DNA of 64,000 nucleotides. Origin: Branchiostoma floridae (lineage: Eukaryota; Chordata; Leptocardii; Amphioxiformes; Branchiostomatidae). Under the pieces are notes generated by a model. The model was given only the letters and a program-made list of their open reading frames with translations, was not told the DNA's origin and made no database searches. The translations under genes were made by a program, and so were the position numbers. The stretch covers positions 9,180,717 to 9,244,716 of the forward strand of contig NC_049982.1 in assembly GCF_000003815.2 (NCBI RefSeq), read 5' to 3'. Positions 44,903 through 61,696 of the stretch are shown piece after piece (the stretch's first letter is position 1; every line of letters begins with the position of its first letter).

Positions 44903-47900
44903 TTAGGCGAACTCCCTGTACGTTGAACCGAAGAAAGCACCATGCATCCGGCCCTCCCGCCTTGCATGGCAGAACAGCATACAGGACAGGATGATGCCCA
45001 GAACCTGCAGAGGAGAGGACAGGGAACAAACATAGTTAACTTAATGTTTCATTTTGTTGGCTGTCATTGGATTAAATATTTTCATTATCTCGTGGTGCAG
45101 TTTCTTCACATTTATTTTTATTTGATGAGTTACCATACCATGGCACAGTATAAAAAGAAACTCTCCTATTTCAGGGGAGGTATGCAGACTGATCAGTTGT
45201 GGTTTGCACTTTTATATAATGTCACCTATATGATAGCATGATGTGATAGTCCCTGGACATAGCAGACATTGCTCCTGCAAATGTATAGTTATACTTCCAG
45301 GGCTCGAAATTCATTTTTGGGATTAGGTGCACTGGCGCACCCAGCTTAAAACATTGGGTGCACCACTTAAGGTGAAGTAAAGACCTAAAAAATAAAACTT
45401 AGTTACAAGCTATCAAATTCTTAAACAAGTACCATGACAGACATTTTTATTGTCTTTATAACACTTAGAATATCAAGAATATGATGTATACTAGACTATA
45501 AGTATACTTTGATATTTTTACATACATAAACATAATAAAATATTTGGGTGCACAGCTCCAATTTTGGGTGCACCTGGGTGCACATGCACCCAGTATTTCG
45601 AGCCCTGACTTCTTACACAGTGTTACATTTCTAAATTATTGATATACAGTCAGAACTGCCTAAGAAGACCACCCAGGGATAAGACAGGATTTTTAATGCA
45701 TGCATAAAGTTAATGGGAAAAATCATTCAAGGAACAAAAACAGTGGTCACATTGGCCAGGTGGTCATCATATACAGGTGGTCAATTGTGAGGATGGTGAT
45801 GATGGTCACTTATACTGGCCTGACTGTGAAATGTTCAGGTTTCAGCAATTCATCATGCACTACAAAAGAGAACTCACCATGATAAGAGCCACACCGAGCG
45901 CCGCACCTCCGATGTAAACAATGTTCTTATTCAGGTTGTTGATCACTTCCTCATCACAGGGCTGCGTAAAAACAATATAATTGTAAGTATACAATGCCAT
46001 AAACACAGCAAAAGGGTGAAAGAGAGCATTTCCATGCATTGTACTAGTCTACTTTTTAAATTAGTTTAAGATGTTAAGACAGCATAAAAATCTTTGAAGC
46101 AGTGGGAGGATTAGAAAAGAGTACCTTGCTCCATCTGCCAGTTGTTGTGTCGCAGGTGTCACCCACAGTACAGTTGCAGGTGTCAGGGTAGTTTGGTGAC
46201 CAGTCCTTGGTGCTGTTCATGCCACAGCACTTAAACTGTCAAAGGAAAAGGCATTACTTTACAAAAACATGTACAATTATGTAACATCAATATAAATTAT
46301 CTAAGAATAATGGTAACTGTGTATGTGTTAAAGCTCATTGAACACAAGCTCACAAAATCTAATTCAATCAATGGACATGTTAATGAACTAAATTGCCCAA
46401 TGATTATACAGGATACAACATATGGCAACAACTACTGAAAGCTACATACAGATACAGAACAACAAAATATCATCAATTGCATTAAACTAGGGTTTACAGT
46501 ACAGTCATGTGTGATTGATCTGGTCTCGCATTTGACCAGGAGCATGTATGACAAAACATTTTCTAAGACTTACAATATCCCTATTTTAAAACAAAATAAA
46601 CTTCACTTACAGCAATAACACAACCAGAGGAGCTCCATCATAATGAAGACCTGCAGATTCAAGCAGCCAATCAGATTGTCTTACCTCTTTCTGGAAGAAG
46701 TCCACCAGCCTCTGTAGCTCAGGGTCCAGGTCCTGATACTTGTTCTCAGCAACCTTGTCCAGTCCTTCCTTCAGAAACTTTTCAGCCTACAATTATAATA
46801 TAGAAAGGAAATCACACAAGTGTTATTTCTATCAAACATACATATTGTAATTATATTCTAATCTGGTTATGAAATATGATTATTTGGTAATAAAAGAAAA
46901 CAAATATTGTTTACATGCATATACTAGTAGCCATTTTTAGAGGTATATATATGGCCTCCTTCGGTCAATACTGACCATGGTAAAATCCTAATAGATGTTA
47001 GAGGCATTTCCTAATGTTAGAGGCAATTCTTGATGTTAGCGATAATCCTGTTTAGAGGTAAATCTTGCAGTTTGAATTTCTTTATTTTTGTTATAGTAGC
47101 TGAAAGTCTTTTCTCTTACATCAGGTTTCATGACCACTGCAAAAATTGCCACCCCAACCTCAGCAATGAGCAGCAACAACAGGCAGACAAAGAACTGAAA
47201 GAAGAACAAATGCACAATAGTTACTCATTGGGAACATCATTTTAGTGAAAGATGTCATCCTGGACATGTGTAAAATTGTTGAACGCGGTTGGTTCGTCAG
47301 GTAACAAAAGTGAAACATATGCATAATTTCTTATCAAACACATTCCAGGTCAAAGTGTATGTACATGTAACATACGTCACAACAAGGCTGAATTTAAGGT
47401 TAAAGTCCATGTCTCATGCCTTAGTGGCACAAAGAGCAGCAATTTTGACTTAATAGGGTTCTGTAAGAAGACTGGTTTGTGGTGAGGGTTACCAATTGCC
47501 CAACTCATAACCACCGCAGTTTGAATCTAAAATTCACACGTACCAAATTTCAAGATTGTTCAATTTCAAATGATGTCAGTTTATCAGTATAGTACACACA
47601 ATGTGAAAGAAGTTGAATATTTTCTCTCATAAACCTACCATTCCCAGCATGCACTTGTTTTCCCGGATGGCGCCGCAGCATCCGAAGAATCCGACGATGA
47701 GAGCGACCACCCCGATGCCGATGAACGCGTAACATCCGGCGTACACCACCGTCTCATCCAGGTTGTCCAGGTTGTGCAGGATCTTCAGCGCGTTGTCGTC
47801 TACCCTGATCCATGTCCCCACTCCCACCAGGAACAGGCCTGCAATCTGGAATGTACCACAAGGTAAGTGACGAACTTCCATATTAAGGGAGAAGGCAGTT

Positions 47901-48712
47901 TTGCCCTTTGACAATGCTGAGTGAGTGAACATAATTATTGAGACCATTAAAATATCAGGCAGACGTATAACCTCTAACTCTAAGCAAATGTTTAAAACCG
48001 TAATGTTTCTAAAGTTCCAAGGAGTTGTTGGCTCAGTCCTCTGTGGAACTGGGAGCTTGAGAAACGTTTGATGACTTTCGGCTTGGAAATTAGCAGGTGC
48101 ATACATGATAACAAAATGTCTAAGTGCTTATAATATGCTATGAATAAACTTTAAGATTACTCTCAAAGCAGAGGTTGTTTAGGAAGACTGTGACATTCCC
48201 ATATATGATATATCCCGTGTACTTCTAGCGGGCTATCAGTCAATCAACCTCTGCTTGGAGAGTCAATAAAGTCGGCGGGACAGGAACAAACACAAAGCCC
48301 CTCCCCCACTTGCAATTTGGATTAGCAAGGAAAGGAGGGGGTTCTGTATATTGAGTTCAACGACCTATTTAGAGGATTACAGACCAATTGTGACGATTAT
48401 CACCCTCTTGTGAGAATTACTCAACACTTGTTCAATGAGTTAATTGGCAGGCTAGGGACCTGAAGACCAAATTTTAGAAAATGAAACGTACTATTTCTTC
48501 GCCACAAACTTTCGTTTAACGTTATCTTTGGGCCACTAAAATCAGGTTCAAGTGTGGATGAGACAATAAATTATAATCATTGTTGCATATGAATAAAATA
48601 TCTGATTTTCTAACGCTTAAAATGCCTTCAAAATGCGCACACTTACCCAGAAAAGGAAGTTAAAGAAGAACAGAAGATATTTGACGCAGTTCATTCCTAC
48701 ACCTTCCGCCAT
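44903..48712 (-). CDS. Tetraspanin T6
   Basis: Exons in transcript order: 48712-48647, 47845-47639, 47194-47120, 46786-46685, 46235-46125, 45961-45878, 45004-44903; GT-AG, phase 0; about 248 residues. It begins MAEGVGMNCVKYLLFFF. TM2 is followed by GCCGAIRENKC, the classical motif. The large loop has FKCCGMNSTKDW (NST sequon), CNCT (NCT sequon), a further Cys and the PC opening exon 6, six cysteines in all. The C-terminus ends YREFA, like T5. Introns 1 and 6 each carry a foldback element. Start context AACATGGCGGAA is YY1-like. It is the last tetraspanin before the duplicated block. Confidence 0.92.
45298..45607. mobile_element. MITE with termini CAGGGCTCGAAAT
   Basis: CAGGGCTCGAAAT at 45298-45310 recurs inverted at 45595-45607. 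The inner sequence holds repeated GGGTGCAC units near both ends around an AT-rich centre. About 310 bases, non-coding, in T6 intron 6. Superfamily not assigned. Confidence 0.75.
45648..45830. repeat. Possible second MITE with GTGGTC units
   Basis: ACAGTCAGAACTG near the left end and CTGACTGT near the right are inverted. GACCACC and GGTGGTCA motifs lie between. The structure is imperfect and the ends are uncertain. Confidence 0.35.
48159..48263. repeat. Foldback element related to the one at 28.8 kb
   Basis: ACTCTCAAAGCAGAGGTTG (48159-48177) recurs inverted as CAACCTCTGCTTGGAGAGT (48245-48263), with one mismatch and a one-base offset. The termini resemble those of the element in T4 intron 2. 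It is in T6 intron 1. Confidence 0.7.
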
Positions 48713-49167: not shown

Positions 49168-50316
49168 TTGCACCCCTATTATTTGTAAATATTGAAACCG
49201 TCCTACTCCCCGCCTATTTTTGTTGCTGACTAACAGGGTCAAATTACTTGTCACGAGACTCGTGACTGTTTGTGTATCATCTGTGCCAGGCAGTGGAAAG
49301 TCCGCAATGACGTACGGTATGAGCGTTATCGTTGACGTTAGTTTGTGCAAGGAGGTTGAAAGAGTGGTTTGTGTAGAATTGTAGACGAAACTGTTACCTG
49401 TAACGTTAACAGTCACATGATAAACGAAGGCCGTCATACAGGTATGATGACACGTATTTTATACGGACAGGACAGACGAGACTCGGGAGCTATGATACGG
49501 CTGGATACCAGGCTAGAACAGTGTAAAAAACTATCAATGTTACTCGTTACTTAATTTCACCTAGCCTGTCTGCGGCTTATGGTCAGAATGGGAATGTCAT
49601 ATATGTTGACACAAAAACGACATGCAATGAATGTTCAATCTATTTCTACATTTTATTGAGGATAGAAATTCGAAGCAAGTTCACAAAAAGTAGTGGGCTG
49701 CGGTGCGTATCGGTGCGCGAGCAAATATAACTGGATCATAACCAATATCATAAGTAATATCTCCACTTTACTCGCTTTCCGTATACTGATATTTGCCTCG
49801 TATAAGGTGTTAGATTGATTATGACTGACTAGTCTGACGTATATAACGTTAAATATATCTATATATCTACAACGTTTCTAGATGGCATAATTATGTTTAA
49901 GGTGCAAAATATCAGATTATCTAAAAAGCAGTTAAGTTACATTCATTGTCAGTGGTGTATGATTGAAGTGCTCAGTCATATGCTTGCGCTCCGTATTGAC
50001 CGTTAGTATCACGTTGGCTATAAGGGTAGATACGTTGCAGATTTCGGGTATTGCTTTCTGAATTTTCTTTGAAGCACAGTGATTGAAGCAAGACTTGAAA
50101 ACCCAATTTCTCCATTTTCTGATAAACTGACCCCATCTCTAACAGGCCTCAGTGTCAGTAGCACCCTTGCGTGATTGGTTAAAAACGCCACCTCAAAAGT
50201 GAAGGGATCTTAGGAAGTCTTGAACATCATGAATACTGGTGTTTCGATTTGCAAGGCTCAGCACCTTTACACTACTAGTATTGTTTTGGGCCCCAAAAGT
50301 CTGAACTTAGCAATCA

Positions 50317-50416
50317 NNNNNNNNNNNNNNNNNNNNNNNNNNNNNNNNNNNNNNNNNNNNNNNNNNNNNNNNNNNNNNNNNNNNNNNNNNNNNNNNNNNN
50401 NNNNNNNNNNNNNNNN
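50317..50416. other. Assembly gap (100 N)
   Basis: Exactly 100 N, the usual placeholder for a gap of unknown size. Copy B has about 855 bases between the matching flanks (about 59243 to 60098), including a long hairpin and an exon, so the true gap is probably much longer than shown. Confidence 0.95.
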
Positions 50417-50490
50417 CTGTATTTTTGCCACTATTACAATCCACCCCACAAATTATGGACAAATGCACAAAGTACCATCTCACTTTATCT

Positions 50491-50565
50491 AGCCTGGATA
50501 CCAGACCCCAGCCCGATCTCAAGAATATCTATTTGATATCGGGCTGGGGTCTGGTATCCAGGCTA
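50491..50565. mobile_element. 75-base foldback insertion present only in copy A
   Basis: Perfect 27-base inverted arms (AGCCTGGATACCAGACCCCA onward) flanked by the 10-base direct repeat CACTTTATCT (50481-50490 and 50566-50575). Copy B at about 60158-60168 has a single copy of the target, so this is a filled site against an empty site. Confidence 0.88.
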
Positions 50566-50901
50566 CACTTTATCTTACTGACTTACAATTCCTGCTACAA
50601 TCAGAGGCACCAATATCTTGTTTCCAATCGCAAATCTCATGGTTATAAATTTTCATGGCACACTTTTACTGTCTGATATAAATTAGATACCAATGAAAGA
50701 ATGTCTGGAATATATTTTAATTAATATCTTTTAGAATATTCATTTCCAGATAGAAAATGTATCACGACCTTGACACATATACATAAGTACGCAGAAAATT
50801 ACATTTCTCTTTAGTACGCCCCCGCATGCAATACATTTTGGTATCCCCCAAATTGGCATTGAAACTCATGACATTCAATTTGGTACAAAACAGCAACGTA
50901 C

Positions 50902-52488
50902 CATTGCGTTCAGCTTGGACATGAAACTGTCCAACCCAAAGCCTTGTAAAGGCCCCATACTCAATACCAGCCTCTATATAATAACTTTCGTTGGTGCTCC
51001 GTCCTGTGCCGACTTCTAACGGATAGGTCATCGCCAGGCGGTCATGGGCAGTCCCGATACGCTCAAGGGCAAATCCACCTCCCACGTCGGTTCGCTGAGG
51101 ATAGGCGCCGTCGGCGTCCGGCCCGTACGTCGTGTCGTCAAACTCCATGTCGGTGCGCGAGTTGGCATAATTCGTTTCCAGGTCTGACAGGTATCGCTCG
51201 TAGAACAGCGGGTACCTCTCTCTGATGGCTTCGATTGCGTAGCCTGGAAGCTCGTCTTCAAAGAAATGAGAAACATTTAAAAAACACGGCCAGGTCACAA
51301 TGAACTAAAAAAAAAAACATGAAACATGTCACCAGTAGAATTGCTGATCACAAAATATATATAGGAAAACGAGTAAATTCAGCTCTTCGCGCTGATTATG
51401 TAGCTTTTCTTAGATGTATCATTGTTGCAAATACATATCAAACATTACAACTATATTGTCATGATTAATCACAAATATAGCCCTTAGGCTTGCACGATTA
51501 ATCACATTCCAAAACTGAAATCATAATCTGAGGAAGAAATGATTGACAGAAAATATACACTGCAGCTCTCCCCAGATCTGTCTATGTTGACTCATTGCAC
51601 AGATATACATATTACATATTTTGATGATTGAATAAAAAGTATTCCTACAACTTTCTCAGTATTGCTGATACTACATATGCAAAATTAATAATAAAGTTTA
51701 TTGCAAAGTCTTGCCCGTGGGCTAATTGCAGGTAACATGAGAGATTCAGACAAGGTAAAAAAACAATATCAAAGGTGTCTACTCTAGTCTAAAACTAGTA
51801 AAAGCTAACTCTATATCCTGGGTTATTGGGTTCGACTCCTTTTTCGAAGACAGTGGAAGACGAAAGATCCCACCTTTTCTATTATGTGTGTGTTTTGTGA
51901 AGTTAGAAGGAGAATTGTTTTCTTTTTGTCGGTGAATGTTAAGAAGTTTGGATGGAATTTGGTGACCTCTTCAAACAGCTCTTTTCTTTCGTGATCACAG
52001 AAAGAGCAGTTTGATAAAATGTGTGTCGTCTTCCACCATGTTTGACCTGCACTGTTTGCACGTTCTTTTACATACAGGTAGCTGATGTTCTTCCAAAATC
52101 TGTACATTCCGTGCACGGACAATCGAGAATTTCGTCGATCAACCTTTGACACATAACCGCTGTGATATTACACAGAGAGCGTCATCTCTGCTGCTGACAA
52201 ACACACCTGGTAACCCAACATTCGGGTCAAAGTTCCTGGTCTCGGGCAGGAACAGTGCTGTGGTGACACCTGGACTTTGTGGGTCGGTGTAGGTTAGAGC
52301 CCAGTGCTCATCAGGTCGGATGGTGATCCTGTCCGTATTGGGTAGGTCAGCGAGTGGGGTGCCGTCATACTCTGCGTACGCGCTCAGATCGTTGAGGAAG
52401 GTGTCCATCCCAATCTCATTAGCCACGGCATCGCCGAGGGTACTAACTGCATTGGCGTACGCCCTTCTTACGTCCTCGTAATTGAATT
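50902..52488 (-). CDS. Two exons of an unrecognised protein, copy A (partial)
   Basis: Exon i (52488-52207, 282 nt) follows TTTTCTAG and ends CCAG|gtgtgt. Exon ii (51255-50902, 354 nt) follows TTTGAAG and ends AATG|gtacgt. All boundaries are phase 1, so they join in frame. Exon i encodes FNYEDVRRAYANAV and later WALTYTDPQSPGVTTALFLP; exon ii encodes ELPGYAIEAIRERYP and YLSDLETNYANSR, then a variable half with a STNESYY motif. No Cys-rich, kinase or other familiar motif and no membrane segment is visible. Upstream and downstream exons are missing or lie in the N gap. Copy B differs by in-frame indels only, which supports real coding. Function unknown. Confidence 0.65.
51680..52145 (-). mobile_element. 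LINE reverse-transcriptase C-terminal remnant
   Basis: In the intron between exons i and ii of copy A. The minus-strand frame has the end region of a non-LTR retrotransposon ORF2 (a THILSNCSFC zinc-like motif, then ERKELFEEV and a basic end), followed by a 3' UTR-like tail. Copy B keeps only its first part (FWKN region, about 61280-61350). Confidence 0.55.
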
Positions 52489-53739
52489 CTAGAAAATAGA
52501 CACGATGAATTCGAAGTAATTGCGGTTTAAATATAATGTCTTCGTAACTAATCTTTGCAATAACATTAATTGTGGCTCCCGTTTACTTCAGTGTTGATCT
52601 CATTGATCCAAATGTACACGTGTTGTAAATTGCACGCATTTATGTGCAACTTATTTATTATTTTATTTCCGTTGATTAGTTAATTCAATCAGTAATGATT
52701 TTCATTTTTTATCATGAAGAAGATATTGAAATTCTCTATTGTGCTGATAACCTTCTTCATGTTAAGCAAACGCAGCTAATAATTTTCTTTTTTGGACTCA
52801 AATATATGTAACATATGTAGTTTGCGGCAAGTAGGAGATTTGTATAATCGGAATATTTCATGGAAATATGAGGTCTCCGAACTCTTCTTGTAATATGTAA
52901 ATTGCTGACTGCAGGGCGAATCGTAATTTGAATACGTGAACTGACTTTTTGTAATTCATTCATTGACGACAGGAGTATTCCATATCCAAGAGCTCGGAGA
53001 CATCATATCTCCATGAAATATTCTGATCATGCAGATGACTTTTACATCTACATATTCTATGCTTGGTTAACTAAAATATACAGGTCACAGTGTTGACAAT
53101 CCAATCATTTGCTACATAGAAGAATTATGTCACTTTTGAATCAATTATGCAAATTAGAGACTTATTATCTCCATGAAAAATTTAGATATAGTTTTGGGTG
53201 TGTCGCTGACCTGAACCTGCTACTTTTTGGGACAGAAACCTTGTCATGCAAGGAATAACCATGCATATTTGGGGCCCCTAGCAGCTTGCTCTGAAACTGC
53301 AAGGACGGTTTTGTCAAACTCTTTCAATGAGAATAACGGTACAAGGGAACGACGGCAGAGATGTACAAAATGAAGTGTAAATTATTGGTGCGTACATTAA
53401 TGAAGTGTACATTAATGAGGAAATCTTTATTTACAGTGTTTTCCATTATATGACTCAAATACAATGTAACGTGTAGTTTGTTGCAGGAGTATGATTAGCA
53501 GATGCCAAATATGCCCTAATTTGCATAATTAAAGCAAAAGTACCATAATTTTCTGAGTGGTACATGACTGAACTGTCAACATGATGACCTATGTAACATA
53601 GTTAAATGAGTGCATAACCACGCGTAGCTTATGCAGATGTGAAAGTCATTTGCATAATCAGAATATTTCATGCAGATATGAGGTCTCCGAACTCTTGTTT
53701 GCATTATTGTTATGTGCTAATCTTCAAATCTCGTGGCAG
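52489..53739. other. Interval upstream of exon i in copy A
   Basis: AT-rich, no exon seen. It holds a single foldback arm (about 52845-52890) and the terminal-inverted-repeat element at 52987-53697. Confidence 0.5.
52987..53697. mobile_element. Non-autonomous element with long terminal inverted repeats, copy A
   Basis: About 60 bases at the left end (CAAGAGCTCGGAGACATCAT onward) recur inverted at the right end (to GAGGTCTCCGAACTCTTG), with several mismatches. The inner 590 bases are AT-rich with no open frame. A further single arm lies just to the left. The same structure is at 62220-62943, so it predates the duplication. Confidence 0.7.
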
Positions 53740-54122
53740 ATCCTACGGTGCCAAAAGGTAGTATCAAAGCTGGCCAGGGAGTATATCCGGAGTCAAATGA
53801 GCACCGGTAAGTTTGATACTTTAATTACGCCACCGTGGATCTGGTTGGAGATTACTAATCTTCCACCTGCCACAAACACCATGTTACGGAAAATCAGACA
53901 CTTATGTGTTAAACAAGGGTGCTTGAAACAACCCTTCACCATCAATTGATACCCAGTTGGTTTGCACAATTATATTCAAATGCATGTGTATTACAATCCG
54001 CAATACGTACTTTTCGTACTTTTAACTCCCCTTCCGCCAACAGGAGCCACATAGAGCACAAGGGTGAGACAAAGCAGAAAACCGAGGATGACTCTAAAAT
54101 GGGAGAAATCACTGTCGTTTAG
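53740..54122 (+). CDS. Two C-terminal exons of an unknown plus-strand protein, copy A (partial)
   Basis: Exon 53740-53806 follows CGTGGCAG and ends CACCG|gtaagt (phase 1 in, phase 2 out). Exon 54044-54122 follows CCGCCAACAG and ends with TAG. Together they give about 48 residues, hydrophilic and charged (PTVPKGSIKAGQGVYPESNE, then SHIEHKGETKQK, ending GEITVV). The last residues resemble a PDZ-binding end. Both exons, all splice sites and the frame are kept in copy B. The two intervening-strand exons of the other gene lie on the minus strand, so this gene must start far to the left or be nested. No upstream exon was found. It may be the cytoplasmic tail of a membrane protein; this is a guess. 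Confidence 0.4.
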
Positions 54123-55164
54123 ATTAAGGCAGAGGTCACAACTATTGCTGATGATGCTAAATCACATATAACATCACGTCACGTCACGTCCCAAGTGCTA
54201 TGCATGGGAAAGGCGACAGGTATCTTTAGGTAGCCAAGGAACTTGAGCTGAGGCAAAACATATGTCGCTGTTTCTCCAGTTTCATTCCAATACCTACTTG
54301 TCTTAAAGACATTGTTGGCTTTCTGTAACAATGGATATCCGCAGCATTTTGTTCGATGGATCTATGATGTATTGATAGTGATAACTGCAGGGTCTCTCCT
54401 GTCATGCCACCTGAAATAAAACTTTGAGGGGCTTTGATATGTAACCCCAAACCTAACAACCCAATGGCATGCTCTTGCTATTGTTAATGTTTCCTTATGC
54501 CGTAAGCCTTTCTTTAGCAATAAATTTGATTCATTCGTTCATACAAGACGTTCATATTCAGGAACAAGATGACAGAACCGGCATAACGTTCCACAGTTTT
54601 TCAGCGTCCACACTTGTTTATCAGGTACCAAATTTAATATTTGTCGGTTCTGTGGGTAAAGAGCAACCACGGCACCACCAAGCATACAACGAAATGTCAG
54701 CACGCTGTATGCAATACAGCTGTTGTCCATTTCAAGGAAGTTGTCATTATTACATACAAACGTACAAAACGCCGCTTACACAACAAATCGTTTTTTGCCT
54801 GATGGGCTTCGTGCTAGGGACAGACCGATTGAACAAGATTCAAGCTAGCATAAGGAGAGAGATATTCACATACTCCCTCTGGCACTTTTCCAGATGTCTG
54901 CAGTCGTCTAGTGGCAGATGATTTGATATCTTCATACGTATGTTTTGTTATCTAGCAGCAATAATTCTCTCATTACGGTGACCAGAGTCGACTTAATGAA
55001 AGCAAATTCTTCCAGCATCATAACCATAACATTTACATGTAGATAAGGGGTATCGTAGTAAATTGTTAAATACCAGGCGAGACACATACAGCTACAAAAT
55101 CATGGTTTGGAACACATTTTGAAATGATCGGAATGACTTATTATGTGGTAATGGCCAAGTGCCA

Positions 55165-55311
55165 ATGGCACGGCGCACCCTCTGCGCACTTCTGTTGTTC
55201 CACATTCCCTTTGTCTATGTCTTTTGCCAACGGCCACAGGTGTTGACGTCACCGGACATAATAGAGTATGGTGCTAAAGTAACATATCTGTGGGGAGAAG
55301 CTTTCCCGTAG
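55165..55311 (+). CDS. Candidate signal-peptide exon or short secreted protein
   Basis: A 48-codon frame from ATG to TAG. The first 21 residues (MARRTLCALLLFHIPFVYVF plus C) look like a signal peptide with basic start and hydrophobic core; then comes QRPQVLTSPDIIEYGAKVTY. It could be complete, or a first exon using a donor at TATG|gtgcta, AAA|gtaaca or CAG|gtgttg. No partner exon is identified. Single-copy, so no comparative support. Confidence 0.25.
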   Translation: MARRTLCALLLFHIPFVYVFCQRPQVLTSPDIIEYGAKVTYLWGEAFP

Positions 55312-57261
55312 TATGAGAAATGGACCGGATGTAGCCGAATATTTGACCTTATAAATTATCGCTTGCATGCTGAACAAAATGTCCAATATTCACTTCAAAT
55401 TCACTTATAAATTGAAAGTTAGGGTACCGTATAACAGTTTCTTCCTGAACGAAATCTATATATTTAGTCTACTAACTCATTACTACATAAATCTCTTAAT
55501 GTTTTCCACTCAACTCATTCTGGATCACATAACCTTCTTGACGAAGTAAATGAGGGACTAATCTATGCAAATAATGTACCTTAAGCAGAATGACAAAAGA
55601 AATGGTAAGGCATTTTTTTATAAAGATCCTTCATGACGGCGGCAGAAAAGAAATAAACCATAATTTCTTGAATCAGCTATTTTTCAGTCTCACTCCGAGG
55701 CAGTCCGTGCCTTCCGTCTGTGCCAGCTCACTACCAACTTTCCCTGTTACCAACTAACTCACCAAATACACTGCAAAACCTTTACGATAAACTGTTTTGC
55801 GAAATCCCTGTAAAACTGACGTTTCATAACATTTTAACAGAAACTAGTCGTACTCACCGCATGGTGACAATTCTTTGAGGAGCTATAGCTACTGAATGTC
55901 CGACCCTGTTGAAAGCCTGTTGAATTTTCTTCACGTTTTTGCCGCACCCTGTATTTTGTCTGTTTTTATGGATGACTGAGCATAAACAATTTGGCTGAAC
56001 ATGGGTGCCAAATTATCGAACGTAATCGAGTGTGTTCATGACGTCAAAGATGCCCTCTCACCATCGTGTGAGACGAAGGAGATACCTCACGTGACCTACT
56101 GTTTACTTCTCATATACAATAAGAGACAATATTTTTCCATCTTATTGACCCATGAACAACGTTTTGGGAAGCCGGGGACTATCGTAAACTTTCCACCTTT
56201 TCCGTGAGATTTCTTTAGCTGATCATGATGTTTTCTCGTTTGTAGAATAACATTACATGGATTTCCACAGACATCAATATGCGTAGAGCGATATATACGA
56301 CAATTCACTATACAATATACAAAAACCAACATCACTTTATCACTCTTATTCATGTACAGGTGTCATGTCGTGTGGACACACACCAAACAACCGCAAATTA
56401 CCCGATAAAATCAAGTGTGTGTAATAACAAAGACAGTTTTGGTCTCTTGCGTCATCGGGGAAAATAAATTATTTTTGCTCACATTGCCAAGTGTTTGATC
56501 GGTTTTGTCACCTTTGGTTCTGTACATTCTGCTAATACTAGTTAAGACTACTAGATCATACATCAACAGACGGAGGAAAACTTCAGTAAAATTTCGGTAA
56601 AATTTGAACAATGTACATGTATGTGCACTAGTGGAAAAAAGGAGGCATTGGCGTTCGGTATTCACCTGCGGTCATCTATACTATAGATTTATTTAGCAGT
56701 TTGTCAAGGTATGGACGTGTATCAAAGTCATTCCTCCATATTGCAGTCTTCAAATAAGTCTTCAAATAACTGTAACCAGGCACCGATCCTGCCGTATTAA
56801 AGACTGGCGAACCGTCAAAGTTGTGCCTTGTCCCAACGGAATCAATGAACTTTATTTACGCGTTTACGTTTTGCAACCACAATAGAATAACAAATTATCG
56901 AACGCACTCTAGCGTACATTGTATGTTGATAAGAAGTTCTTCCTGTCTCGTTGCACCCTACTACGAGCTGTGAGTTACACATGACCCCACGGCGAAGCGC
57001 AGGGCACTGCTGAATACCTGCCAACCCATTAGTTTCCTAGTTAAAGCAAATTTTATTCATAAGGACGTGTGTTTTGAATTTTTTTTACCTTAGACATTGT
57101 GACTTTGTGATGTCATAATTTAGCGCCATCATGCTCCAGTGCAAATCGCGGGTAGACTCAATCCATAATATTTGTTGACGTTTCCATGATGTCTATATGT
57201 AATACCTTGTAATGGATACAGTGCTGGGAACATTTGTAAAGCATGACGTGCTAAGATGAAA

Positions 57262-58112: not shown

Positions 58113-59717
58113 ACTGGCACCATTGCATATTGCATATTGAACCCGTCCCATTCTCCGCCTATTTTTGTTGGTGACTAACAGGGTCAAATTACTTGTCACG
58201 AGACTCGTGACTGTTTGTGTATCATCTGTGCCAGGCAGTAGAAAGTCCACAAAGAATGACGTATGACATGAGCGTTATCGTTGACGTTAGTTTTTGTGTA
58301 GAATTGTAGACGTAACTGTTACCTGTAACAGTCACATGATAAACGAAGGGTCGTCATACAGGTATGACACGTATTTTATACGGACAGGACAGAAGAGACT
58401 CGAGAGCTTTGGTATACGGCTGAATACCAGGCTAGAACAGTGTAGAAAACTATTGATGTTACTCGTTACTTAATTTCACCTAGTCTGTCTGCGGCTTATG
58501 ATCAGAATGGGAATGCTATATATGTTGACACAAAAATGACATGCAATGAATGTTCAACTTCTATTTCTACATTTTATTGAGGATGGAAATTCGAAGCAAG
58601 TTCCCAAAAAGTAGTGGGCTGCGGTGCGCGAGCAAATGTAACTGGATCATTACCAATATCATAAGTAATATCTGACAGTTAGTCTCCATTTTACTCGCTT
58701 TCCGTATACTGATATCTGCCTCGTGCAAGGTGTTAGATTGATTATGAATGACTAGTCTGACGTATATAACGTTAAATATATCTATATATCTACAACGTTT
58801 CTAGATGGCATAATTATGTTTAATAAGGTGCAAAATATCAGATTATCTAAAAAGCAGCTAAGTTACATTCATTGTCAGTGGTGTATGATTGAAGTGCTTC
58901 ATATGTTTGCGCTCCGTATTGACCGTTAGTATAACGTTGGCTATAAGGGTAGATCTATACGTTGCAGGTTTTGGGTATTACTTTCTGAATTTTCTTTGAA
59001 GCACAGTGATTGAAGCAAGACTTCAAAACTCAATTTCTCCATTTTCTGATAAACTGACCCCATCTCTAACAGGCCTCAGTGCCAGTAGCACCCTTGCGTG
59101 TTTGGTTAAAAACGCCACCTCAAAAGTGAAGGGATCTTAGGAAGTCTTGAACATCATGAATACTGGTGTTTCGATTTGCAAGGCTCAGCACCTTTACACT
59201 ACTAGTATTGTTTTGGGCCCCCAAAAGTCTGAACTTTAGCAATCAGAACATTGACACCATTGATTGGTGAAGGAGGCTAGGGGAACCCATGCCCCCTTCA
59301 CCAGTCAATGATGTCAATGTTCTGATTGCTAAAGTGCAGACTTTGGGGGGCCAAAAACAACTCAAGCTACCACGGGGACGCCACTCTCAGTTACAAATTC
59401 ATAGGGTGTGAATTCTAATTGTATTCAAATGATATTCCGGAGCAGACTCGCCATTCAAACTGAACTCACTGATATATCTCACTGACTGCTTTTCTTTATG
59501 TACTTAACTTAACTTAGTCCACAGCTTTGTTGATTAAAAATGCACTCAAGATATAGGATGAGGGAACAGGTGGTGGCACCTTTGATAGCCCTCGTCCCGA
59601 ATTAAAGATACAATGGATACAGATATAAAGACTAATAAAAGACAACAGACTAGTAATCACAGACTACGGAGCCCTTAAATCCTGGCAGGAGGCGCACTTA
59701 AATGCATTAGATCAGGT
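58113..59717. other. Left part of copy B, no gene seen
   Basis: Matches copy A 49168-50316 closely. Open frames over it are not kept between the copies (for example an indel that is not a multiple of three near 58245-58260), so they are not coding. It includes the hairpin at 59210-59358. Confidence 0.6.
59210..59358. repeat. Long hairpin, about 65-base arms
   Basis: The left arm from GTTTTGGGCCCCCAAAAG to GATTGGTGAAGGAGG recurs inverted to the right, ending GGGGCCAAAAAC. A few mismatches; loop of about 20 bases. Copy A has the left arm up to 50316, where its sequence stops at the N gap. Confidence 0.85.
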
Positions 59718-61696
59718 TCAGAGGTTACAAAGTGAATTTCCAACCCAAAACATATTTCCATGGACAACAGCCCCTATCAAGTAACTTTCGTTGGTGCTCG
59801 GGTCTGTGGCTTGGATCTGTGGCTTGGTTGTGGTTGTCTCCGCTGCAAAACAAAAACAAAAAGGCATTAGTTAATACTAGGAAATTATGCATACAACAAT
59901 GTATCGCTGTTTCCTTTTAATGTAGCATTATCTATAATAGTGCACTGTTTTTTTAAGTGTCACCCGTTGGTTGGTACCACACAATATAATAATGTATAAC
60001 GTTATTCATCGATTTGGAAAAAAAGGTATACATGTTGGTGCACTGGTAGGCTAAACTGTCGGTTGGTTCAGAAATGGCGATAGAAGGAAATAAACTGTAT
60101 TTTTGCCACTATTACAATCCACCCCACAAATCATGGACAAATGCCCAAAGTACCATCTCACTTTACCTCACTGACGCACAATCAGTGCTACAATCAGATT
60201 TCCAATCGTAAATCTCACTGTTATAGATTTTCATAACACATGACACACTGTCTGATATAGATGCTATGTATCTGTCGTCAAGTTATAACGTACCAATATT
60301 CTAGTATCTTTCAAAACATTCATTTTCAGATAGAAAATGTATCACGACCTTTACACATATACATACGCGTGCAGACACTCATACACAATTCTCCTTGGAT
60401 TGTCGCTGCATGCTTGCAATACATTTTGATAACTCTCAAATTGGCCTTGAAACAATCACATGACATTGGTAGAAAACAGCAACGTACCATTGAGTTTAAC
60501 TTTGATTGGAAAACATCCAACCCAAATCATACGTACACCCCCTATAACACCAGCCCCTGTAAAATAACTTTCGGTGGTGCTCGGGGCTGTAGCTTGGATC
60601 GTATCATTCAGACGGCCAGGGGTGGTCCCAAAATGCTCAAAAGCAAATCCATCCCCCAGGTCAGTGTGTGTGGGCCGGTAGGGGACGTCGATTTCCGTCC
60701 CATACGTGGCGTCGTCAAACTCCACGTTGGTGCGCGAGTTGGCATAATTCGTTTCCAGGTCTGACAGGTATCTCTCGTAGTACCGTGGGTATCTCTCTCT
60801 AAGGGCTGCGATGGCGTAGCCTGGAAGCTCGTCTTCAAAGAAATGAGAAACATATTTCAAAATCACGGTCAGTTCTACAGTTCGACATGTTTTGATGTTT
60901 TGTAGTTCCTTGTGACCTGACCGTGATTTTGAAATATAGAATCAAAATACAGAAAAACGAGTAAATTCAGCTCTTCACTGATTTTGTAGCTTTGTTTAGA
61001 TGTATCAATGTTGCAAATACATGTGCAAAGTTGCCACTATATTGTCATAACTGATCCGAAAATAGCGCTTAAACTTGCACGATTAATCACGCATCAGAAC
61101 TGAAATCATGATTTCTAAGGAAGAAATTCGTACTGTAGCTCTCCCCAGATCTGCCCGTGTTGACTTATTATAATATACCCAGATCTACAAACATATTTTG
61201 ATGATTGAATAAAAAAAGATTCCTACAACGTACTCATTATTGCTTATAATACATGTACAAAATTAATACAATATCAATTCTTCTTCCAAAATTCGTACGT
61301 GGACGAATAATATATTCCGTGGACAATCGAGGATTTCCATCGGCCAACCTTTGATACATACCGCCGTTCTGTCGTCTTGATATTAAATAGCGTCATCACT
61401 GCTACTAACAAACACACCTGGTAACCCAACATTCGGGTCAAAGTTACTGGTTTCGGGCAGGAACAGTGCTGTGGTGACACCTGGACTCCGTGGGTCGGTG
61501 TAGGTTAGAGCCCAGCGCTCAGGTTGGATGGTGATCCTGTCCGTATTGGGTAGGTCAGCGAGTGGGGTGCCGTCATACTCTGCGTACGCGCTCAGGTCGT
61601 TGAGGAAGGTGTCCATTCCAATCTCTTCAGCCACGGCATCGTCCAGTGTTGCAACCGTATTGGCGTACGCCCTTCTTGCGTCCTCGTAATTGAATT
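59718..61696 (-). CDS. Three exons of an unrecognised protein, copy B (partial, with C-terminus)
   Basis: Exon i (61696-61418, 279 nt), exon ii (60832-60488, 345 nt) and exon iii (59842-59718). Internal boundaries are phase 1 and GT-AG. Exon i is almost the same as in copy A (one codon shorter). Exon ii keeps ELPGYAIAALRERYP and YLSDLETNYANSR, then differs strongly (DVPYRPTHTDLGDGFAFE). Exon iii follows TTTTGCAG, encodes a Thr-rich start (ETTTTKPQIQATDPSTNESY), then FWVGNSLCNL and a stop. It repeats the end of exon ii (QATAPSTTESY ... WVG), so it probably arose by exon duplication. No signal peptide or membrane segment is seen; upstream exons lie beyond the window. Function unknown. Confidence 0.6.
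60853..60936. repeat. 20-base perfect hairpin just upstream of the exon ii acceptor, copy B
   Basis: TATTTCAAAATCACGGTCAG (60853-60872) recurs inverted at 60917-60936. On the minus strand it lies about 20-100 bases before the acceptor of exon ii. Copy A has a single, diverged version of this sequence instead. Confidence 0.8.

Follow-up and report, generated by a model that had tools for sequence, protein, structure and literature searches.

Two tandem gene copies, A and B, lie on the minus strand of a 64,000-nt window of the Branchiostoma floridae genome (contig C4, positions 9180717-9244716), whose coordinates are used throughout. Copy A extends from 49189 to about 57 kb and copy B from 58134 to about 66.3 kb; the window holds most of B, the remainder lying past its end. 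Each copy carries an exon i, of 282 nt in A (52207-52488) and 279 nt in B (61418-61696), followed by an exon ii, of 354 nt in A (50902-51255) and 345 nt in B (60488-60832), and all four exons are symmetric (phase 1-1). The original prediction had singled out exon ii of A as a strongly diverged but open exon between near-identical flanks, and had proposed either diversifying selection on this domain, as in recognition or self/non-self proteins, or gene conversion from other family members.

Exon ii proved to be a real exon of the predicted extent. Its splice sites resemble the consensus in both copies (in A, acceptor ...TTTGAAG/AC and donor AATG/GTACGT), the reading frame is open in both, and alignment of A with B requires four indels of 3, 6, 3, and 3 nt, all multiples of three as first noted, which argues for constraint on the coding sequence of A and B alike. 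Amino acid identity is 59% across the whole exon. The described contrast between a conserved start and a changed second half was also borne out, the non-synonymous rate (dN) being 0.07 in codons 1-43 and 0.44 in the rest. Exon i and the 2 kb beyond it are, broadly as claimed, almost identical in A and B, with Jukes-Cantor (JC) distances of 0.071 (for an exon i taken with two surplus 5' bases) and, upstream of exon i, 0.031 and 0.030.

The diverged unit is larger than the exon. Exon ii lies within a block of about 1.6 kb (50566-52197) in which about 24% of aligned sites differ between A and B, and which consists of 3' non-coding DNA, exon ii, and the intron. The JC distance is 0.285 ± 0.034 for exon ii, 0.291 ± 0.036 for the 336 bp of 3' non-coding DNA (50566-50901), 0.310 and 0.249 for the intron, and 0.188 for the 104 nt adjoining exon i. 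The 3' non-coding DNA and the intron beside exon ii are as diverged as exon ii itself, and the picture of an exon set directly between near-identical flanks does not hold. What stands of it is the diverged open exon, not the isolation of that exon, since the unit of divergence is the block.

The right edge of the block is sharp and falls at A 52197, 10 bp into the intron from the exon i donor. A likelihood scan for a single break, restricted to positions from 50566 on (the global alignment near 50417-50566 is spoiled by an assembly gap), gave 24% divergence before this point and 3.5% after it (delta log likelihood 175; maximum among 500 permutations 9.6). Divergence thus changes abruptly here irrespective of coding status, as in a mosaic tandem duplicate. 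The near-identical tract that follows (52198-56006; JC distance 0.03 overall and 0.07 in exon i; 0.7-10% in single alignment windows) stops in turn at about 56006. Beyond it, A and B differ by 9-42% per alignment window, some windows having few aligned sites, and A 56393-57005 has 83.5% identity to B. Background divergence reappears outside the near-identical tract, and with this second rise the near-identical stretches look like islands.

Leftward from the block there follow a palindromic insertion in A (50492-50565), a 74-nt near-identical piece (A 50417-50490, corresponding to B 60095-60168; 96% identity by BLAST, JC distance 0.042 over 50417-50491), an assembly gap of 100 N close to the left block edge (50317-50416), and the near-identical left tract (A 49189-50316, B 58134-59245; JC distance 0.041). 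The palindromic insertion, which marks the left edge of the block, lacks a counterpart in B and matches itself in inverted orientation at 89% over 74 nt. Near the other edge, about 95 bp before it, the intron of A contains an insertion of 412 nt (51691-52102) that is missing at the B locus; 232 nt of it recur on contig C12 at 87%, which identifies it as an interspersed repeat, and its open reading frame has no Pfam match up to E 1. Copy B has a palindromic element of its own at 59208-59360 (87.6% self-complementary over 153 nt); the first part of that element's left arm can be traced in A as well, as far as the N gap.

Between A and B, exon ii has a synonymous rate (dS) of 0.471 and a dN of 0.273 (Nei-Gojobori), with a dN/dS ratio (omega) of 0.58 (bootstrap confidence interval, CI, 0.35-0.93). 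This comparison had been named in advance as a check, and a dN below dS, taken with conversion as the probable cause of the identical flanks, comes close to the outcome that was to refute the proposal. The values are dS 0.287 and dN 0.074 in codons 1-43, and dS 0.615, dN 0.441, and omega 0.72 (CI 0.40-1.33) from codon 44 to the end. For exon i, dS is 0.125 and dN 0.055, its first codon in this comparison including one intron base. Codon models agree in direction. Over the eight exon ii copies found in the 513-Mb assembly (431 contigs), omega is 0.53 for the whole exon (2 delta lnL against omega = 1, 26.1), 0.50 for codons 1-43 (9.8), and 0.57 from codon 44 on (12.7, rejecting omega = 1); for exon i it is 0.47 (18.7). 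With A, B, and copy C alone, exon ii gives 0.59 (6.8) and its 3' part 0.63 (3.5, not significant). All these 2 delta lnL values are slightly too large, as kappa was held at its free-fit value in the omega = 1 fits. The proposal of diversifying selection on the domain is not supported, synonymous sites and adjacent non-coding DNA being equally diverged.

The eight exon ii copies are each accompanied by a close exon i copy and are distributed over contigs C4 (three), C13 (two), and C12 (three). Among these paralogues, the 3' part of exon ii is the fastest in A-B, A-C, B-C, D-E (the C13 pair), and between clusters, with a dN of the last part of 0.49 for A-B and about 0.7-1.1 between clusters, where the alignment of the last 40-50 codons is uncertain and both rates are inflated. 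On C12, however, the last part is nearly invariant. The C12 trio (F, G, and H) shows a similar mosaic in which the diverged half of exon ii is the opposite one: H departs from F and G at up to 17/72 sites per alignment window in the intron and at 10-11/75 in the first part of exon ii, but by 0-1 non-synonymous and no synonymous changes in the last 43 codons, and by 0-8% per window elsewhere. A rule that the 3' half diversifies thus does not apply to every cluster. On C13, D and E are 80-82% identical across both exons and have almost no intron in common.

A donor for the block was sought in the assembly with two pieces of its DNA. At E ≤ 1e-5, the intron of A (51256-51690) matched only itself and B (77%), and the 3' DNA of B (60159-60487) matched only itself and A (70%), in a search that ignores common words and from which a donor made of repeats could escape. 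For these two queries there is so far no sign that another family member in the assembly supplied the block. The suggestion of gene conversion is accordingly shifted: import of the exon finds no donor, and conversion is probably involved as the explanation of the identical flanks. A run test for converted fragments among five copies gave its smallest P values for A-B (0.0045) and B-C (0.008) in exon ii and for D-E (0.02) in exon i, values that are uncorrected for 10 pairs per set and that constraint could also explain. Inspection of the alignment had suggested that B and C share a converted tract in exon i, but the run test did not support it.

The reading that probably accounts for these data is an older tandem duplication in which tracts were recently homogenised, exon ii being left in a stretch between them that escaped this process, close to inserted repeats. 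A and B would descend from the duplication of a gene with a two-exon module of extracellular type, and the duplication would be older than it appears, the non-coding background divergence being roughly 15-30%. The stretches A 49189-50490 (with the N gap inside) and 52197-56006 would have been homogenised recently to 3-4%, most likely by gene conversion, and exon ii, sitting between them, would have retained the old divergence. The insertions of copy A, the palindrome at the left edge and the 412-nt repeat near the right edge, would be expected to hinder conversion, and in this way exon ii could have kept its divergence; conversion as the cause of the identity, the direction it took, and the part played by the insertions as barriers are all proposals. 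Purifying selection would have kept the first 43 codons of exon ii similar, and the last 40-50 codons would be weakly constrained. This reading is supported by exon ii and the adjacent non-coding DNA having diverged to the same degree, by the abrupt right edge of the block and the second rise at about 56006, by a dN lower than dS, by two donor searches that yielded none, and by a similar mosaic in a second tandem cluster. Exon ii looks like a stretch that was spared recent copy-to-copy homogenisation, not like an exon pushed to diversify.

Several observations weigh against this. The left edge of the duplicated unit is sharp (49189/58134), the copies aligning at high identity from the outset; a recent duplication would leave such an edge, and so would a conversion tract that reaches the point where homology stops. 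The near-identical left tract adjoins the N gap, where a misjoin may have occurred. With A, B, and C alone, the run test gave no significant sign of a converted fragment, as P was at least 0.14 for every pair in exon i (33 variable sites) and in exon ii (141). Exon i has a dS as low as 0.08-0.12 in comparisons of A, B, and C, though the introns of C are mostly unalignable with those of A and B; to account for this, either conversion would have to be confined to exon i or its synonymous sites would have to be constrained. From codon 67 to the end of exon ii, omega for A-B is 0.84 with a CI of 0.44-1.58; dN is below dS but not significantly, and this part is weakly constrained at best. From column 45 on, the state of A alone recurs in other copies at 18 columns and that of B alone at 9 (10 unpolarised), so that more of the derived changes fall on B. 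A cysteine pair (exon ii columns 50 and 73) that is present in 6/6 copies outside the window is found in neither A nor B, perhaps a lost disulphide. Finally, exon ii omega is 1.23 for F-H (CI 0.51-5.1) and 1.12 for F-G (lower bound 0.21), both with wide intervals.

Part of this evidence would be expected if the duplication were recent, with an age corresponding to 3-4% divergence, and the block of one copy had later been replaced by sequence from a diverged paralogue or allele. Two edges suit such a history, that of the unit on the left, where identity is high from the start, and the abrupt end of the block on the right, at 52197. It is a rather improbable account all the same: the two block queries found no donor in the assembly, and a second replacement would be required beyond 56006. 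The case for the 3' half of exon ii being under positive selection, as in a recognition domain, draws on the remaining points: the last part is the fastest in all the comparisons listed above except those within C12, the changes are biased to B, two cysteines are gone from A and B, omega exceeds 1 in F-H and F-G, and a few selected sites can escape pairwise and one-ratio tests. Such selection is nevertheless very unlikely, given that dN is below dS for A-B, that omega from codon 44 on rejects 1 over the eight copies, that the 3' half is nearly invariant on C12, and that divergence is not confined to the exon, the non-coding DNA beside it having diverged equally.

An assembly effect, with two haplotypes placed in tandem and the block as a hyperdivergent allelic segment, deserves equally little credence. 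The outer divergence of 3-4% is close to the density of one single-nucleotide polymorphism per 34 nt quoted for lancelets in PMC12373286 (one per 174 nt in its B. belcheri samples) and lies below the 6-7% given in PMC2632668; the latter describes misassemblies and haplotype variation in the first amphioxus assembly, and an N gap does lie inside copy A. On the other side, no N run occurs from 50417 to the window end, most of copy B included, a third partial unit follows at 66965-69873, and divergence shifts again at 56006. A more elaborate possibility is that balancing selection maintains several deep haplotype lineages in a secreted recognition family and that the block represents one of them; the copy-specific insertions would then act as conversion barriers, letting the 3' half explore sequence (loss of the cysteine pair, derived changes mostly in B) as the rest of the gene stays uniform. 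This we regard as unlikely. The older duplication with recent homogenisation of its flanks remains the preferred account. The original prediction rested on a sound observation with a mistaken focus, and the locus is an ordinary mosaic tandem duplicate with a module absent from the libraries searched.

The two exons follow one another in a fixed order, an exon-i-like exon preceding an exon-ii-like one in 8/8 short copies (intron phases were read for A and B). Exon i has 18 weaker relatives on contig C17 (E up to 0.05), 10 on one strand and 8 on the other, arranged in two arrays with a period of about 0.95 kb at 6.51-6.525 Mb (plus strand) and 6.567-6.577 Mb (minus strand); the count being a lower bound, the arrays comprise at least 10 and at least 8 copies. 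In both arrays, exon-ii-like exons alternate with exon-i-like ones, and a Sushi exon (PF00084, E 2.7e-12) lies downstream of the plus-strand array. In the light of what is generally known of exon shuffling, the symmetric 1-1 exons and the Sushi neighbour together suggest that exons i and ii form a module of a secreted or otherwise extracellular protein, and the proteins of A and B would then probably be secreted.

Neither exon has a match in Pfam or NCBIfam, nor in PDB by sequence. Pfam searches up to E 10 gave no family, whether the query was one exon, the two exons joined, or any member of either module alignment, and profiles of exons i and ii against PDB sequences found nothing better than E 0.88. 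The predicted structure of exon ii had a mean predicted local distance difference test score of 35 and was not used. The idea that the two exons are copies of one ancestral exon was rejected, profile comparison giving no similarity. A viral source was likewise dismissed, as the joined exons have no relative in the viral collection, and so was a bacterial one, the exon i profile (one pattern of exon i only) having no relative in prokaryote contigs. The analysis thereby also yielded an animal module of two exons that matches nothing in Pfam, NCBIfam, or PDB and that is present in short tandem genes and in arrays, one of them followed by Sushi.

Other features were noted at the locus. A candidate terminal exon iii of B (59718-59842, minus strand) resembles the 3' part of exon ii (tblastn against exon ii of B, E 7.6e-5, plus three-frame translation; exon ii profile, E 0.003) and reads STNESYLIGAVVHGNMFWVGNSLCNL, then stop, with putative acceptor and frame. 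The assembly gap in A corresponds to about 850 bp in B that include this candidate, and its counterpart in A, if any, would fall in the 100 N. A hydrophobic stretch, RVILGFLLCLTLVLYVAPVGG, at 54021-54095 in A was considered as a signal-peptide exon and rejected, its open frame (from the open reading frame list of B) having no methionine; no convincing upstream exon common to the copies was seen either. Immediately left of copy A, a Tetraspanin exon region (PF00335, E 8.9e-12) lies at 47627-48127 on the minus strand. The third array unit, beyond the window, is more diverged, and its matches to A and B (76-93% identity) are confined to their upstream parts.

Among known systems, the VCBP clusters of amphioxus offer one parallel. 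For these tandem genes, PMC2632668 proposes that haplotype-specific indels and repeats interrupt the gene conversion that would homogenise them, with some genes diverging and another staying homogenised; a comparable disruption by insertions is proposed here for A and B. Unlike the VCBP genes, exons i and ii lack a Pfam match, the V-type immunoglobulin and chitin-binding domains of VCBP type being absent at E up to 10, and they are known here from the sequence of one assembly. Allorecognition or self/non-self families resemble A and B in being multi-copy and probably extracellular and in having a variable exon; they differ in that no sign of omega above 1 is seen between A and B and that non-coding DNA is equally diverged, and no evidence was found for the recognition function first suggested.

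A further likeness is to gene-conversion mosaics in tandem duplicates, in which near-identical and diverged tracts alternate with sharp edges that ignore coding status. A and B show the same alternation and the same edges regardless of coding, though conversion is deduced here from a single assembly. An apparently hypervariable exon can arise in this way from flanks that are too similar rather than from an exon that is too different, and comparison of the exon with non-coding DNA of the same block is a way to tell these two apart.
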